A DNA stretch of 54,820 bases from an uncultured Actinomycetes bacterium (GTDB lineage: Bacteria; Actinomycetota; Acidimicrobiia; IMCC26256; PALSA-555): NCBI GenBank assembly GCA_903899845.1, contig CAIUKV010000147.1, forward strand, positions 1-54,820, given 5' to 3'. The notes beneath the pieces are model-generated. The model saw only the letters and a program-made list of their open reading frames with translations, searched no databases and was not told the DNA's origin. Each line of letters starts with the position of its first letter. The first letter of the stretch is position 1. The translations under genes were made by a program, and so were the position numbers. Positions 6,735-15,881 of this stretch are shown piece after piece.

Positions 6735-7463
6735 TCAGTGGCCGGGGGCGGCGAGCGCCGCCGCGACCTCGGCGTGCACTGCCGCCGCCGCACCGGCGGG
6801 GTCGTCGGCCTGGGTGACCGCCCGGCCGACGACGAGCCACGTCGCGCCGTTCGCGATCGCGGCCGCCGGGGTCGCGATCCGGGCCTGGTCGTCGGGCGCG
6901 GTTCCCGCCGGGCGGATCCCCGGCACCATCGTCCGCATCCCGGCCGCCGCCGCGGCACCCACCTCGTGGGCCGAGCAGACGACGCCGTCGCAGCCGGCGG
7001 CGACCGCGGCGGCGAGTCGGCCCGGGAAGGCGCCGGCGTCGGGGTCGCTCGTGAGCACGGTGACCGCGAGGGCCACCGGGGACGGATGCCCGCCCTCGGC
7101 CGCGCCCTCCCGCAGCCCCGCCACCGCCGCTGCCATCATCTCGGGCCCGCCGGCGGCGTGGAAGTTGGCGAGGTCGACCCCGGCCCGCCCGAGCACGCGG
7201 GCGGCCCGACCCACGGTGTTGGGGATGTCGTGGAGCTTGAGGTCGGCGAAGACCCGGTACCCGAGCGCGGCGAAGCGGGTGAAGGCGTCGGGACCGGCCT
7301 CGGTGAACAGCTCGAGGCCGACCTTGGCGACCCCGAACCACGGCCCGACCCGCGCGGCCATCGCCTCGGCCGCAGCCAGATCACCCACGTCGAGGGCCAG
7401 GACCAGGCGATCACGGACACCGGGATCGCCGCCGCCAGGATCGCCGATCGTGGGATCACTCAT
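6735..7463 (-). CDS. pyrF: Orotidine 5'-phosphate decarboxylase
   Basis: LVLALDVGDLAAAEAMA...VFADLKLHDIPNTVGRAA...ATWLVVGRAVTQADDP; start ATG 7463. Confidence 0.96.
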   Translation of the reverse strand: MSDPTIGDPGGGDPGVRDRLVLALDVGDLAAAEAMAARVGPWFGVAKVGLELFTEAGPDAFTRFAALGYRVFADLKLHDIPNTVGRAARVLGRAGVDLANFHAAGGPEMMAAAVAGLREGAAEGGHPSPVALAVTVLTSDPDAGAFPGRLAAAVAAGCDGVVCSAHEVGAAAAAGMRTMVPGIRPAGTAPDDQARIATPAAAIANGATWLVVGRAVTQADDPAGAAAAVHAEVAAALAAPGH

Positions 7464-8394
7464 CGTGGTTCCTCTCGCAGGGCGCCGATCAGGTCGGCGA
7501 CGCGGTCGATGCCATGACGCCCGCACCAGGCGGCGAGCTCGTCGCGGATGCGCAGGGTCGCGCGGGGGTCTCGGAAGGTGGCGGTGCCGACCCCGACGGC
7601 CACCGCCCCGGCCAGGAGCATCTCGACCGCGTCGACCCCGGTCGCCACTCCCCCGGTGCCGATGACCGGCACGCCCGGGAGCGCGCGGGTGACGTCGTGG
7701 ACGACCCGGAGCGCGATCGGCTTGACCGCCGGACCCGACAGGCCCCCGTTGCCGGCTCCGAGCGCCGGGGTCCGGGTCTCGGCATCGATGAGGAACGCCC
7801 GCACGGTGTTCACGCACGTGAGTCCGACCGCCCCCGCCCCCACCGCAGCCTCGGCGACCGCGACCACGTCGGTGGCGTTGGGCGAGAGCTTGGCCAGGAC
7901 CGGCACCGATCCCGCGGCGTCGACCACCGCCCGCACCGTCGTCGCGGTCGCCCCGGGGTCGTGGGCGATGAGGTCACCGTGGGCGAGGTTGGGGCACGAC
8001 AGGTTCACCTCGACCGCCAGCACCCCCGGCGCGGCCGCCACCGCGGCCGTCGCGCCGACGTAGTCGTCGGTGGTGAAGCCCCACACCGATGCGATGACCC
8101 GCGCGCCCCGGGCCACGAGCGGGGGCAGGTCCTGGGCCAGCCACACGTCGACCCCGGGACCCTGGAGCCCCACCGCGTTGACCATGCCCGCCGCGCTCGG
8201 GTGCAGGCGGGGGGCCGGGTTCCCGGCCCACGGGAACGGGGCCTGGCTCTTCGTGGTCACCGCGCCGAGGCCGGCCGGGTCGCAGAGCGCCGCCACCTCG
8301 TCGCCGTGGCCGAACGTCCCGGAGGCCGCCACCACCGGGTTGGGCAGGACGAGCGGGCCGACCCGGACCGAGAGGTCGACCGCCGGACGCGCCA

Positions 8395-8395
<1 letters not shown>
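7460..8395 (-). CDS. pyrD: Dihydroorotate dehydrogenase, class 1 (Cys active site)
   Basis: PNPVVAASGTFGHG...EVNLSCPNL...GTGGVATGVDAVEMLLAGA; 4-bp overlap with pyrF. Confidence 0.95.
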
Positions 8396-11711
<3,316 letters not shown>

Positions 11712-11712
<1 letters not shown>

Positions 11713-12857
11713 CAGGTCACATCCATGAGCGCGGTGAACTCCGAGAACAGGTAGGCGGCGTCGTGGGGGCCCGGGCCGGCCTCGGGATGGTGCTGCACGC
11801 TGAAGGCCCGCAGGTCGTCGAGCGCGAGACCCTCGACCGTGCCGTCGTTGAGGTTCACGTGGGTGATCCGGGCGCCCCCGGGGACGGTGTCGGCGCGCAC
11901 CACGTAGTTGTGGTTCTGGCTGGTGATCTCGACCCGCCCGGTCGCCTCGTGGCGCACGGGGTGGTTGGCCCCGTGGTGCCCGAAGGCCAGCTTCTCGGTC
12001 CCGGCGCCGAGCGCCAGACCCATCATCTGGTGCCCGAGGCAGATCCCGAACACCGGCACGGCGCCGAGCAGGCTCCGCACGGTGTCGGGCACCCCGGCCA
12101 CCGCCGCGGGGTCCCCGGGGCCGTTCGACAGGAAGACGCCGTCGGGGGTGCGGGCCAGGATCTCCGCCGCCGGGGTGCCGGCGGGCACCACCTCGACCCG
12201 GCAGCCGGCCCGGACCAGGTGGGTGAGGATGGTCCGCTTGATCCCGAGGTCGAGCGCCACCACCCGGTACGGGGCGTCGGCGTCGCCGACCACGTAGGGC
12301 GTCGGGGTGGTCACCTCCGCGACCAGGTCGCGCCCGTCGGTGGGGGCTGCGGTCGCGGCCGCGGCGCGCACCGCGTCCTCGTCGGCGCCGAACGCCCCGG
12401 GGCGGGCCCCGGTGTCCCGGAGGTGCCGGGTCAGGCGCCGGGTGTCGATGCCGGCGATCACCGGGACCCCGGCGGCGTCGAGGAAGCCGGCGAGGTCACC
12501 CCGGCTCCGCCAGTTGCTCGGCCGCCGGGCCAGGTCGCGCACGACCAGGCCGCGGCAGAACGGGCGCGCGTGCTCGGAGTCGTCGTCGTTGACCCCGTAG
12601 TTGCCGATGTGGGGGTAGGTGAACGTGATGATCTGCCCGGCGTAGGACGGATCGGTGACGATCTCCTGGTACCCCGACAACGAGGTGTTGAACACCAGCT
12701 CGCCGGTGGCGACCGCACCGCCGGCACCGTCGACACCCTCGGGACCGTCGGCGCGCGCGGTGCCGGCCGCGACGGCGACCTCGCCCTCGAACGCGGTGCC
12801 GTCGTCGAGGATCAGCACCCCGTCGGTCCACGTCGTCGTCGCCGCCGCTGTCCTCAT
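11712..12857 (-). CDS. carA: Carbamoyl-phosphate synthase small subunit
   Basis: [12 protein letters not shown]...[39 protein letters not shown]...[17 protein letters not shown]; start ATG 12857. Confidence 0.98.
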
Positions 12858-14140
12858 CGCTGGGCCTCCCCGTCGCGGACGACCACGTCCCCGCGGAGCA
12901 GGGTGTGGCGCACCTTCCCGGTCAACGTGCGTCCGGCGAAGGGCGTGTTGCGGGCCTTGCTCGCGAGCCGCTCGGGCGCGACCTCCCACCGGTGCTCGGG
13001 ATCGAACACGCAGAGGTTGGCGACCGCTCCGGGCGCGACCGGGCCACCGTGGTCGGCGAGCCCGGCGATGGCGGCCGGCTTCCACGAGCAGGCCGCGAAC
13101 GCGGCGAGCGGCGTGAGCACCCCGGGGCGCACGAGCTCCTCCCAGACCAGCGCGAGGGCCGTCTCCAACCCGAGCATCCCCGAGGGCGCCTCCTCGAACG
13201 GCCGCTCCTTGGCCTCGGTCGGATGGGGCGCGTGGTCGGTCGCGATCACGTCGATGGTGCCGTCGGCCAGGCCGGCCTTGATCGCCGCGAGGTCCGCATC
13301 CGTGCGCAGGGGCGGGTTGACCTTGAACACGGGGTCGAAGGTCGCGCAGCACGCGTCGGTCAGGGTGAAGTGGTGGGGACACGCCTCGGCCGTCACCCGC
13401 GCACCGGCGGCCTTGGCCGCCCGGACCAGCTCGACCGCCCCGGCGGTGGAGATGTGCTGGAAGTGCAGCCGGGCCCCGGTGGCTCGCGCCAGGATGACGT
13501 CCCGGGCCACGACGACCTCCTCGGCCATGGCCGGGCGACCGGGGATCCCGAGACGACTCGACCACTCCCCCTCGTGCATGGCGCCGCCCGCGACCAGGTC
13601 GGGGTCCTCGGCGTGCTGGCTGATGACCGCACCCGGCAGGGCGCGCGCGTACTCGAGGGCCCGGCGCATCACCCCGGCGTCGGCCACGCAGTCGCCGTCG
13701 TCGGTGAACATCCGCACACCGAGGGCGTGGAGCTCCCCCATCGGCGCGAGCTCCTCGCCCGCCCGACCCCGGGTGATGGTGCCCGAGGACACGACCTCGC
13801 ACGCGGCTCGGGCACCCGCCGCGAGCACGGCGGCGACCACCGTGGGGTCGTCGAGCGGCGGGGTGGTGTTGGGCATCGCCACCACCGCGGTGTACCCGCC
13901 GAGCGCCGCGGCCCGGGCGCCGGTCTCGACCGTCTCGGCGTCCTCCATGCCCGGCTCCCGCAGGTGCACGTGGACGTCGACCAGCCCCGGGGCCACCAGG
14001 CATCCGGAGGCGTCGAGGGTCGTGTCGCCGGTCAGGTGCTCCCCCACCTCGACCACGACGCCGTCGTGGACGCGCACGTCGGCCGTGCGCTCGCCGCCCG
14101 GATCGAGGACCCGTCCGCCCCGGATGACCAGATCAGCCAT
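12854..14140 (-). CDS. pyrC: Dihydroorotase
   Basis: [24 protein letters not shown]...[46 protein letters not shown] 14140 preceded by GGGAGG; alternative GTG at 14155. Confidence 0.95.
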
Positions 14141-15056
14141 GTCCACCTCCCGCACCCAGCAGCTCGTAGAGGACCGCCATGCGCATCGCCACTCCGTTCG
14201 CCACCTGCTCCGTGATCAGCGACGCCGGCCCCTCGGCCACCTCGGCGGCGATCTCGACCCCCCGGTTCATCGGGCCCGGGTGCATGATCAGCGCCTCGGG
14301 CCGGAGCCGGGCCGCCCGCTCGACGGTCAGCCCGTAGCGCGCGGTGTACTCCCGCAGCGAGGGGAACCGGGTCTCGCGCTGACGCTCCCGTTGGATCCGC
14401 AGCAGGTACACGACGTCGAGGTCGCCGAGCACGGCGTCGAGGTCGTGCGAGACCGTCACCGGCCACCCCGCCACCGTCGACGGCAGCATCGTGGGCGGCG
14501 CGACCAGGGTGACGTCGGCACCGAGGGCGGCGAAGGCGTGCGCACCGCTGCGGGCCACCCGGGAGTGGAGGATGTCGCCGACGATGGCGATGCGGGCGCC
14601 GTCGAGCCCGGGACCGATCCGGTGGCGGAGGGTGAGCAGGTCGAGCAGGGCCTGGGTGGGGTGCTCGTGGCAGCCGTCGCCCGCGTTGACGACGCTGGCG
14701 TCGATCCACTCGGCGACCCGGTGGGGGGCCCCGGCCGCGGAGTGCCGCATCACCACGGCGTCGATCCCCATCGCCTCGATGGTCTGGACGGTGTCGCGCA
14801 GGCTCTCGCCCTTGGTCACCGACGACGACGCGACCGAGAACCCCATGACGTCGCAGGACAGCCGCTTGGCCGCGGTCTCGAACGAGATCCGGGTCCGGGT
14901 GGAGTCCTCGTAGAAGAGGCTGACCACGACCTTGCCCCGGAGGGCGGGGACCTTGGGGATCTCGCGGCGCGTCACCTCCCGGAAGGACGTGGCCAGCTCG
15001 AGCAGCTGCTCGATCCCGGTCCGGTCGAGGTCGCCGACCGACAGGAGGTGCTTCAC
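14133..15056 (-). CDS. pyrB: Aspartate carbamoyltransferase catalytic subunit
   Basis: [22 protein letters not shown]...[22 protein letters not shown]...[12 protein letters not shown]. Confidence 0.98.
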
Positions 15057-15763
15057 GGCCGGGCCTCGTCGGGATCGGGCCCGGGATCGGCCCCGGGATC
15101 GGCCCCGGGATCGCCAAGGGCCGCGGGACTCCAGAGCTCGATGCCGTCGTCGGTGCCGTCGGTCTCGGCGAGTCGGACCCGCACGTCGTCGTCCTCGTGG
15201 GTCGGGAGGTTCTTCCCGACGAAGTCGGCCCGGATCGGCAGCTCGCGGTGCCCCCGGTCGATCAGGACCGCGAGCTGCACGGCGCGGGGCCGACCGAGCT
15301 CGGTGAGCGCGTCGAGCGCGGCGCGCACCGTGCGACCGGTGAAGAGCACGTCGTCGACGAGCACCACCACCCGTCCGGTGACGTCCACGGGCACCTCGGT
15401 GGGCCCGAGGGGCTGGACCGGCCGCAGGGCGATGTCGTCGCGGTAGAACGCGACGTCGAGGGCACCCACCGGGACGGTCACCCCCTCGAACGCGCCGATC
15501 GCGTCGGCGAGGCGCCGGGCCACGGCCACGCCGCGGGTGTAGAGCCCGACCAGCACGACCGCCTCGGCGCCCTGGTTGCGCTCGACGATCTCGTGGGCGA
15601 TGCGGGTGTGGACCCGCCGCAGGGCGTCGGCGTCGAGGAGCCGGGCCCGCCGGACCCAGACCGGCGGGACGGCCCCGGACGCGGAACGACCGCCGGGAAC
15701 GGCGGCCGCAGGCAGGGTGGTTCCGTCAGGATCAGGGCCGGCCGAGCCGGTCGGGGGTACCAC
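15053..15763 (-). CDS. pyrR: Bifunctional PyrR: pyr operon regulator / uracil phosphoribosyltransferase, extended at both ends
   Basis: Core [25 protein letters not shown]...YRDDI...[22 protein letters not shown]...[24 protein letters not shown] start at 15763; no in-frame ATG/GTG/TTG start seen between it and the core. Confidence 0.94.
15068..15115 (-). repeat. 12-bp tandem repeat (4 units) encoding the GADP-rich C-terminus of PyrR
   Basis: gtcgggatcggg / cccgggatcggc / cccgggatcggc / cccgggatcgcc. Confidence 0.85.
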
Positions 15764-15775
15764 CGTCGCATCCTC

Positions 15776-15808
15776 TCCGTGGAGGCCTCACGGGACCTCC
15801 TTCACGGA
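15776..15808 (-). promoter_or_regulatory. PyrR-binding-loop-like RNA hairpin in the pyrR leader
   Basis: Minus-strand RNA UCCGUGAAGGAGGUCCCGUGAGGCCUCCACGGA: lower stem UCCGU/ACGGA, one-sided purine bulge GAA, upper stem GGAGG/CCUCC, bulged U, CC/GG, loop CGUGA. Matches the core UCCNGNGAGG of the PyrR consensus ARUCCNGNGAGGYU. Confidence 0.8.
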
Positions 15809-15816
15809 CGACCGAG

Positions 15817-15822
15817 ACGGTA
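15817..15822 (-). promoter_or_regulatory. Putative -10 TACCGT for pyrR operon
   Basis: Minus strand TACCGT; predicted TSS near 15810, just before the hairpin. Confidence 0.5.
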
Positions 15823-15844
15823 TCACGCCCACCCCCGGGGACGA

Positions 15845-15873
15845 GCACCGGCGGGGCGGACCCCCGCCGGTGC
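15845..15873 (-). terminator. Hairpin downstream of SDR gene
   Basis: Perfect 12-bp inverted repeat gcaccggcgggg-cggac-ccccgccggtgc starting 9 nt after the SDR stop; no U tract. Confidence 0.6.
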
Positions 15874-15881
15874 CCCCGCCC

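Follow-up and report, generated by a model that had tools for sequence, protein, structure and literature searches.

In Mycobacterium smegmatis, Fields and Switzer (2007, J Bacteriol 189:6236) are said to have described PyrR-dependent translational repression of pyrR. For the pyr leader of Thermus ZO5, Van de Casteele et al. (1997, J Bacteriol) reportedly proposed PyrR-regulated attenuation, with a translating ribosome preventing the terminator. In the attenuation of pyrBI in E. coli, read-through occurs when a leader ORF is translated across an intrinsic terminator, and UTP is sensed there via pausing of RNA polymerase. The RNA element recognized by PyrR, the binding loop (BL), has the consensus ARUCCAGAGAGGYU, with the loop, the top of the upper stem and a purine bulge as its determinants (PMC7430163).

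The pyr operon analyzed here lies on a 54,820-nt contig of an uncultured member of the Acidimicrobiia (the window, by which we mean that whole stretch of DNA). The BL architecture and consensus, PyrR as the sensor and, in many relatives, a downstream terminator are shared with the pyr attenuators of Bacillus subtilis and Rfam family RF00515; unlike these, the Acidimicrobiia carry the BL on the Shine-Dalgarno (SD), show no specific complementarity for an antiterminator and gave no match above the family cutoff in 120 class genomes. As the M. smegmatis locus is reportedly organized, both it and the window have a BL just upstream of pyrR over the SD, pyrR as the first gene of the operon and no classical antiterminator. 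What sets the window apart from that reported description is a 35-codon extension of pyrR with a terminator-like hairpin, and in class relatives a full intragenic terminator.

The pyr operon and its leader

The genes are ordered pyrR-pyrB-pyrC-carA-carB-pyrD-pyrF on one strand (Table 1), the carA, carB, pyrD and pyrF ORFs being named by recognizing their sequences. The overlap of pyrR with pyrB given in the initial annotation is correct. Its further claim, that downstream genes are affected by coupling through these 4 bp, stands in part: the overlap is real, but polarity or attenuation is equally plausible.

Matches of PyrR structures in the PDB to the window PyrR begin at residue 38-41. The N-terminal extension of about 35 residues (15659-15763, minus strand), rich in proline, glycine and alanine, is absent from solved PyrR structures. 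The PyrR core is intact, including T-R-IAH, and the RNA contacts of B. subtilis PyrR, which we take to be T18/R19/H22, R141, R146 and K152, correspond to conserved segments of the window protein. The length of the extension is highly variable among relatives; in the window's order it ranges from 16 to 49 residues, with a mean identity of only 38% versus 31% for shuffled pairs.

Table 1. Features of the pyr locus in the window
Feature	Coordinates	Strand	Description
Extended -10 element (predicted)	15817..15825	-	TGATACCGT; hexamer TACCGT 15822-15817 with upstream TG
PyrR binding loop (BL, predicted)	15776..15808	-	lower stem, GAA bulge, upper stem, CC/GG cap, loop core UCCCGUGAGG; from sequence, fold, covariation and model R1
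Shine-Dalgarno GGAGAGG	15772..15778	-	first 3 nt within the 3' strand of the BL lower stem
pyrR	15053..15763	-	GTG start; 236 aa; NCBIfam PyrR equivalog 1.3e-70
9-bp hairpin	15687..15708	-	CGGCCGCCGUUCCCGGCGGUCG, inside the pyrR N-terminal extension, then UUCCGCGUCC; apparent degenerate counterpart of the relatives' intragenic terminator
pyrB (aspartate carbamoyltransferase)	14133..15056	-	overlaps pyrR by 4 bp (15053-15056)
pyrC (dihydroorotase)	12854..14155	-	
carB	8395..11712	-	ORF, name from sequence alone
pyrD	7460..8395	-	ORF, named likewise

The 33-nt sequence quoted in the initial annotation is found exactly at the BL position, and the fold drawn there was borne out, with a UCCGU/ACGGA lower stem, a GAA bulge, a GGAGG/CCUCC upper stem, an unpaired U and a CC/GG cap; the minimum free energy structure pairs slightly differently at the top of the stem. 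The isolated 33-mer reaches -16.8 kcal/mol (z -2.5; 2 of 200 shuffles equally good), and in the context of the 86-nt leader the total fold energy is no better than that of shuffles (z +1.1). Fold energy alone is thus insufficient in this GC-rich genome, and the case rests on conservation. The BL has the loop core UCCNGNGAGG, a short closing stem and a purine bulge beneath it, with a G-C pair where ARUCCNGNGAGGYU has its flanking A and U; it lies upstream of pyrimidine genes in a genome that encodes PyrR. The assembly (2.9 Mb) holds a single copy of the exact 33-mer and about 100 of the bare core TCCNGNGAGG, so recognizing a BL requires position and structure. Rfam gave no PyrR match, whether the full window was searched or the surroundings of the site at E<=10; a weak Guanidine-II match on the opposite strand near the site (E 0.13) was taken as chance.

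As the initial annotation had it, the BL overlaps the SD of the pyrR GTG start, as expected for a mycobacterial-type arrangement, and only 12 nt separate the BL from the start codon. In 46 of 86 relatives, counting from the TCC core, an SD-like motif is first encountered at +16/+17, which puts it over the 3' foot of the lower stem. The proposed -10 hexamer is likewise present, and in 69 of 86 relatives a TANNNT lies 6-12 nt before the foot of the BL, in most cases with a TG ahead of it; a full -35/-10 scan found no sigma-70 site. From the position of this conserved -10, transcription is predicted to start at the BL foot, at about 15809-15811. Farther upstream, between the stop of an SDR gene and the pyrR -10, is a GC-rich inverted repeat (CACCGGCGGGG/CCCCGCCGGTG, 15833-15875) that probably belongs to the SDR gene as its 3' hairpin.

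Conservation of the binding loop

PyrR is present in 113 of 120 relatives. Upstream of pyrR, the core motif is found in most of the 96 class (Acidimicrobiia) loci, and an upper stem of at least 3 bp in 87 of them. The stems covary strongly across orthologous pyrR leaders, an outcome by which the loop of the initial annotation could be judged. In 59 distinct aligned sites, all of equal length, 95.5% of paired cells can pair versus 82.5% after shuffling; here and below, percentages are not probabilities, as the related sequences are non-independent. Changes on both sides are seen in 8 of the 11 BL pairs, and the covariation score of 0.403 (shuffles, 0.155 +/- 0.012) was reached by none of 500 shuffles; slid versions of the structure collapse in the same test. 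The invariant letters, which include T14, C16, G18, G20, A21, G22 and the bulge A7, agree with the BL consensus and with its known determinants.

A covariance model built solely from Acidimicrobiia BL sites (R1) scores the window site at 51.6 bits (E 4e-9) and the runner-up in this genome at 19.7 bits (E 0.5), leaving the window BL as the only strong site. Across the phylum, R1 sites are found in 154 of 297 genomes. The model also finds BLs before pyrR in Bacillota loci (Bacillus and Anoxybacillus), and these matches link the window BL by homology to experimentally known BLs. In the Anoxybacillus locus, R1 sites at 1870, 2558 and 3998 follow the layout of three classical attenuators; those at 1870 and 3998 are significant (E 0.0001 and 0.006), and at 2558 the match is weak and partial (E 0.85). 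Rfam RF00515, with its gathering cutoff of 54 bits, gave no match above cutoff in any of the 120 relatives or in the window; three sub-threshold matches in the class each cover the whole model.

Could the element be a chance GC-rich hairpin that merely contains the core motif? The abundance of the core in the genome and the unremarkable stability of the 86-nt leader would allow it, but the covariation, the class-wide position before pyrR and the model score all speak against it; the covariation data already refute this reading, which we regard as virtually certain to be wrong. Covariation, recovery of Bacillota loops by the Acidimicrobiia model and a PyrR with conserved RNA-contact segments instead support the identity first claimed for the element, and the window hairpin is very probably a PyrR binding loop that occludes the SD.

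Related elements occur in other settings. In two relatives, a second strong BL lies directly before a carA detached from the pyr operon (L191:1501-1533, minus strand; L192:1501-1533, plus strand); in L192 a leader ORF overlaps the carA start and encloses a long, almost perfect inverted repeat with no U-tract. In a streamlined Acidimicrobiia family (L091, L092, L093 and L097; PyrR about 38% identical), the leader of a diverged PyrR still has a BL-like hairpin; its cap is shortened (CUUUAA-ACAAUG-UCAGUGAG-CAUUG-AAAGG), and by itself its fold is only weakly unusual.

Terminators within the reading frame after the loop

In 42 of the 87 BL-bearing class relatives, an intrinsic terminator lies downstream of the BL within the ORF that opens right after it, this ORF being either an in-frame N-terminal extension of pyrR or a separate leader peptide. 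The hairpin and subsequent U-rich tract stand in the open frame between the BL and the PyrR core, as in L010 (CGACCCCCGAGGGGGGTCGTTTTTTTGT) and L050 (ACGCCCTAACCGGGGCGTTTTTCTTTT). The terminator score, uniform across leaders and controls, adds up the hairpin energy and two points for each T in 9 nt. With this score, which was devised after examples had been seen and applied identically to all controls, 41% of 75 leaders reach at least 25, versus 0.8% of codon shuffles and 0.8% of 514 PyrR coding-sequence windows. Among 49 in-frame extensions the fraction is 53% versus 3.9% after protein-preserving synonymous recoding, and the hairpin is therefore supported by codon choice as well as by the amino acids.

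The leaders scoring at least 22 (n=42) were classed as 34 with an ORF fused to pyrR and 8 with a separate one, and the ORF reads through the terminator in 41 of the 42. In the exception, L056, and in L032, which was classed as separate, an out-of-frame start was picked automatically though an in-frame one exists; clear separate leader peptides are those of L055, L057, L059, L065, L074 and L089. No scoring terminator was found in 37 of 71 fused class cases, partly since some have no room for one, and at other loci the BL lies right at the pyrR start. The succession of BL, SD, short leader ORF and terminator is also seen outside the Acidimicrobiia, in Rokubacteria (L153), HR30 (L164) and Chloroflexi (L149), as well as in L138, L204-L207 and some Actinomycetota.

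In the window, the 9-bp hairpin at the orthologous position has a stability of -17.2 kcal/mol (4 of 200 shuffles equally good). By the usual definition of an intrinsic terminator, a GC-rich stem followed by a U-rich tract, the stem is present and the U-tract is insufficient, and both terminator scans rejected the tail. Where the PyrR core begins there is another inverted repeat rich in GC (CCCGCCGG...CCGGCGGG); its fold is not significant (z -1.2; 26 of 200 shuffles equal), it has no U-tract, and it was discarded. The initial annotation had described the locus as lacking an attenuator terminator; this holds insofar as no terminator in the window passes a standard scan, but class relatives have a conserved intragenic terminator at the equivalent position. 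Termination in the window's genus is doubtful, the hairpin being kept and the U-tract degenerate. Attenuation may thus be a property of many class members that is weak or lost in this genus.

A terminator after the BL in many relatives, together with RF00515 matches that span the whole model, could point to a classical attenuator of the Bacillus type, in which the BL is an anti-antiterminator and the antiterminator pairs the 3' half of the BL with the 5' arm of the terminator. In Bacillota, the mean duplex energy of these two segments is -14.9 for a locus's own pair versus -12.3 for pairs mismatched between species, but in Acidimicrobiia it is -8.3 versus -8.1, that is, without specific complementarity, and the antiterminator pairing was not supported in class relatives. 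A start codon with its SD between BL and terminator, and the short spacing of BL and start codon in the window, also argue against a Bacillus-type attenuator, which we consider very improbable here. With no specific BL-terminator pairing, nothing points to a classical antiterminator, and the obvious candidate for the antiterminating role is a translating ribosome.

A proposed ribosome-dependent switch

PyrR-dependent translational repression, as put forward in the initial annotation, fits a BL that overlaps the pyrR SD and has the best support of the mechanisms considered for the window. On a transcript starting at the BL foot, PyrR would bind the predicted BL in a UMP-dependent manner: when UMP is plentiful, PyrR-UMP would lock the lower stem and cover the overlapping SD. 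Judging from homology and from the anatomy of the leader, ribosomes would then be unable to start on pyrR. In roughly half of the relatives in the class, an intrinsic terminator lies within the codons read from that start, whether these are fused to pyrR or form a leader peptide. A ribosome translating those codons would prevent the terminator hairpin, and mRNA blocked by PyrR would terminate. Repression of translation by PyrR would thus become attenuation of transcription for the operon as a whole. For the window's genus, translational repression would be the main effect, possibly with weak termination or polarity.

The logic of ribosome-coupled pyr attenuation has a precedent in the proposal reportedly made for Thermus ZO5, in which a ribosome likewise prevents the terminator; a terminator region fused in frame to PyrR, as in the Acidimicrobiia, is not known from Thermus. 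As in E. coli pyrBI, translation of an ORF through an intrinsic terminator would lead to read-through, whereas polymerase pausing senses UTP in pyrBI and PyrR is proposed to gate ribosome entry here. In relatives, ribosome-coupled attenuation is likely, with coupling of ribosome and RNA polymerase presumed for Acidimicrobiia. In E. coli, a ribosome coupled to transcription is able to keep an intrinsic terminator from forming (PMC5021804).

A conservative version of this explanation, which takes the BL as given, is translational repression in mycobacterial style and nothing more, with the extension hairpin having no terminator role in this species and downstream genes affected only via translational coupling or Rho-dependent polarity. 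The negative terminator scans of the window favor it, as do relatives with the BL directly at the pyrR start and no room for a terminator (for example L067, L072, L075, L085 and L090 in the class, and L202, L213 and L226 among other actinobacteria). Against it, the window retains a 9-bp hairpin where relatives have the terminator, U-tracts of partial to good quality survive in L003, the nearest relative, and in family members, and the extension persists despite poor conservation at the protein level. We give this version an even chance of being right. For the Acidimicrobiia, we lean slightly towards PyrR gating ribosome entry to an ORF with its own intragenic terminator, often the PyrR extension, so that the extension would mainly encode an RNA switch leading to termination of the whole pyr operon.

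These findings widen the range of PyrR-RNA control by a class of actinobacteria that are mostly uncultured and that Rfam misses, and suggest a two-step, ribosome-dependent off-switch in about half of the relatives. Translational repression and transcription attenuation by one protein may interconvert, with direct SD blocking, a leader peptide plus terminator, and a terminator fused into the regulator gene as their forms. Some of the variable N-terminal extensions of bacterial proteins may accordingly be elements of the RNA, not features of the protein, and the pyr leaders of Acidimicrobiia provide a testable case of protein-gated, ribosome-coupled termination.
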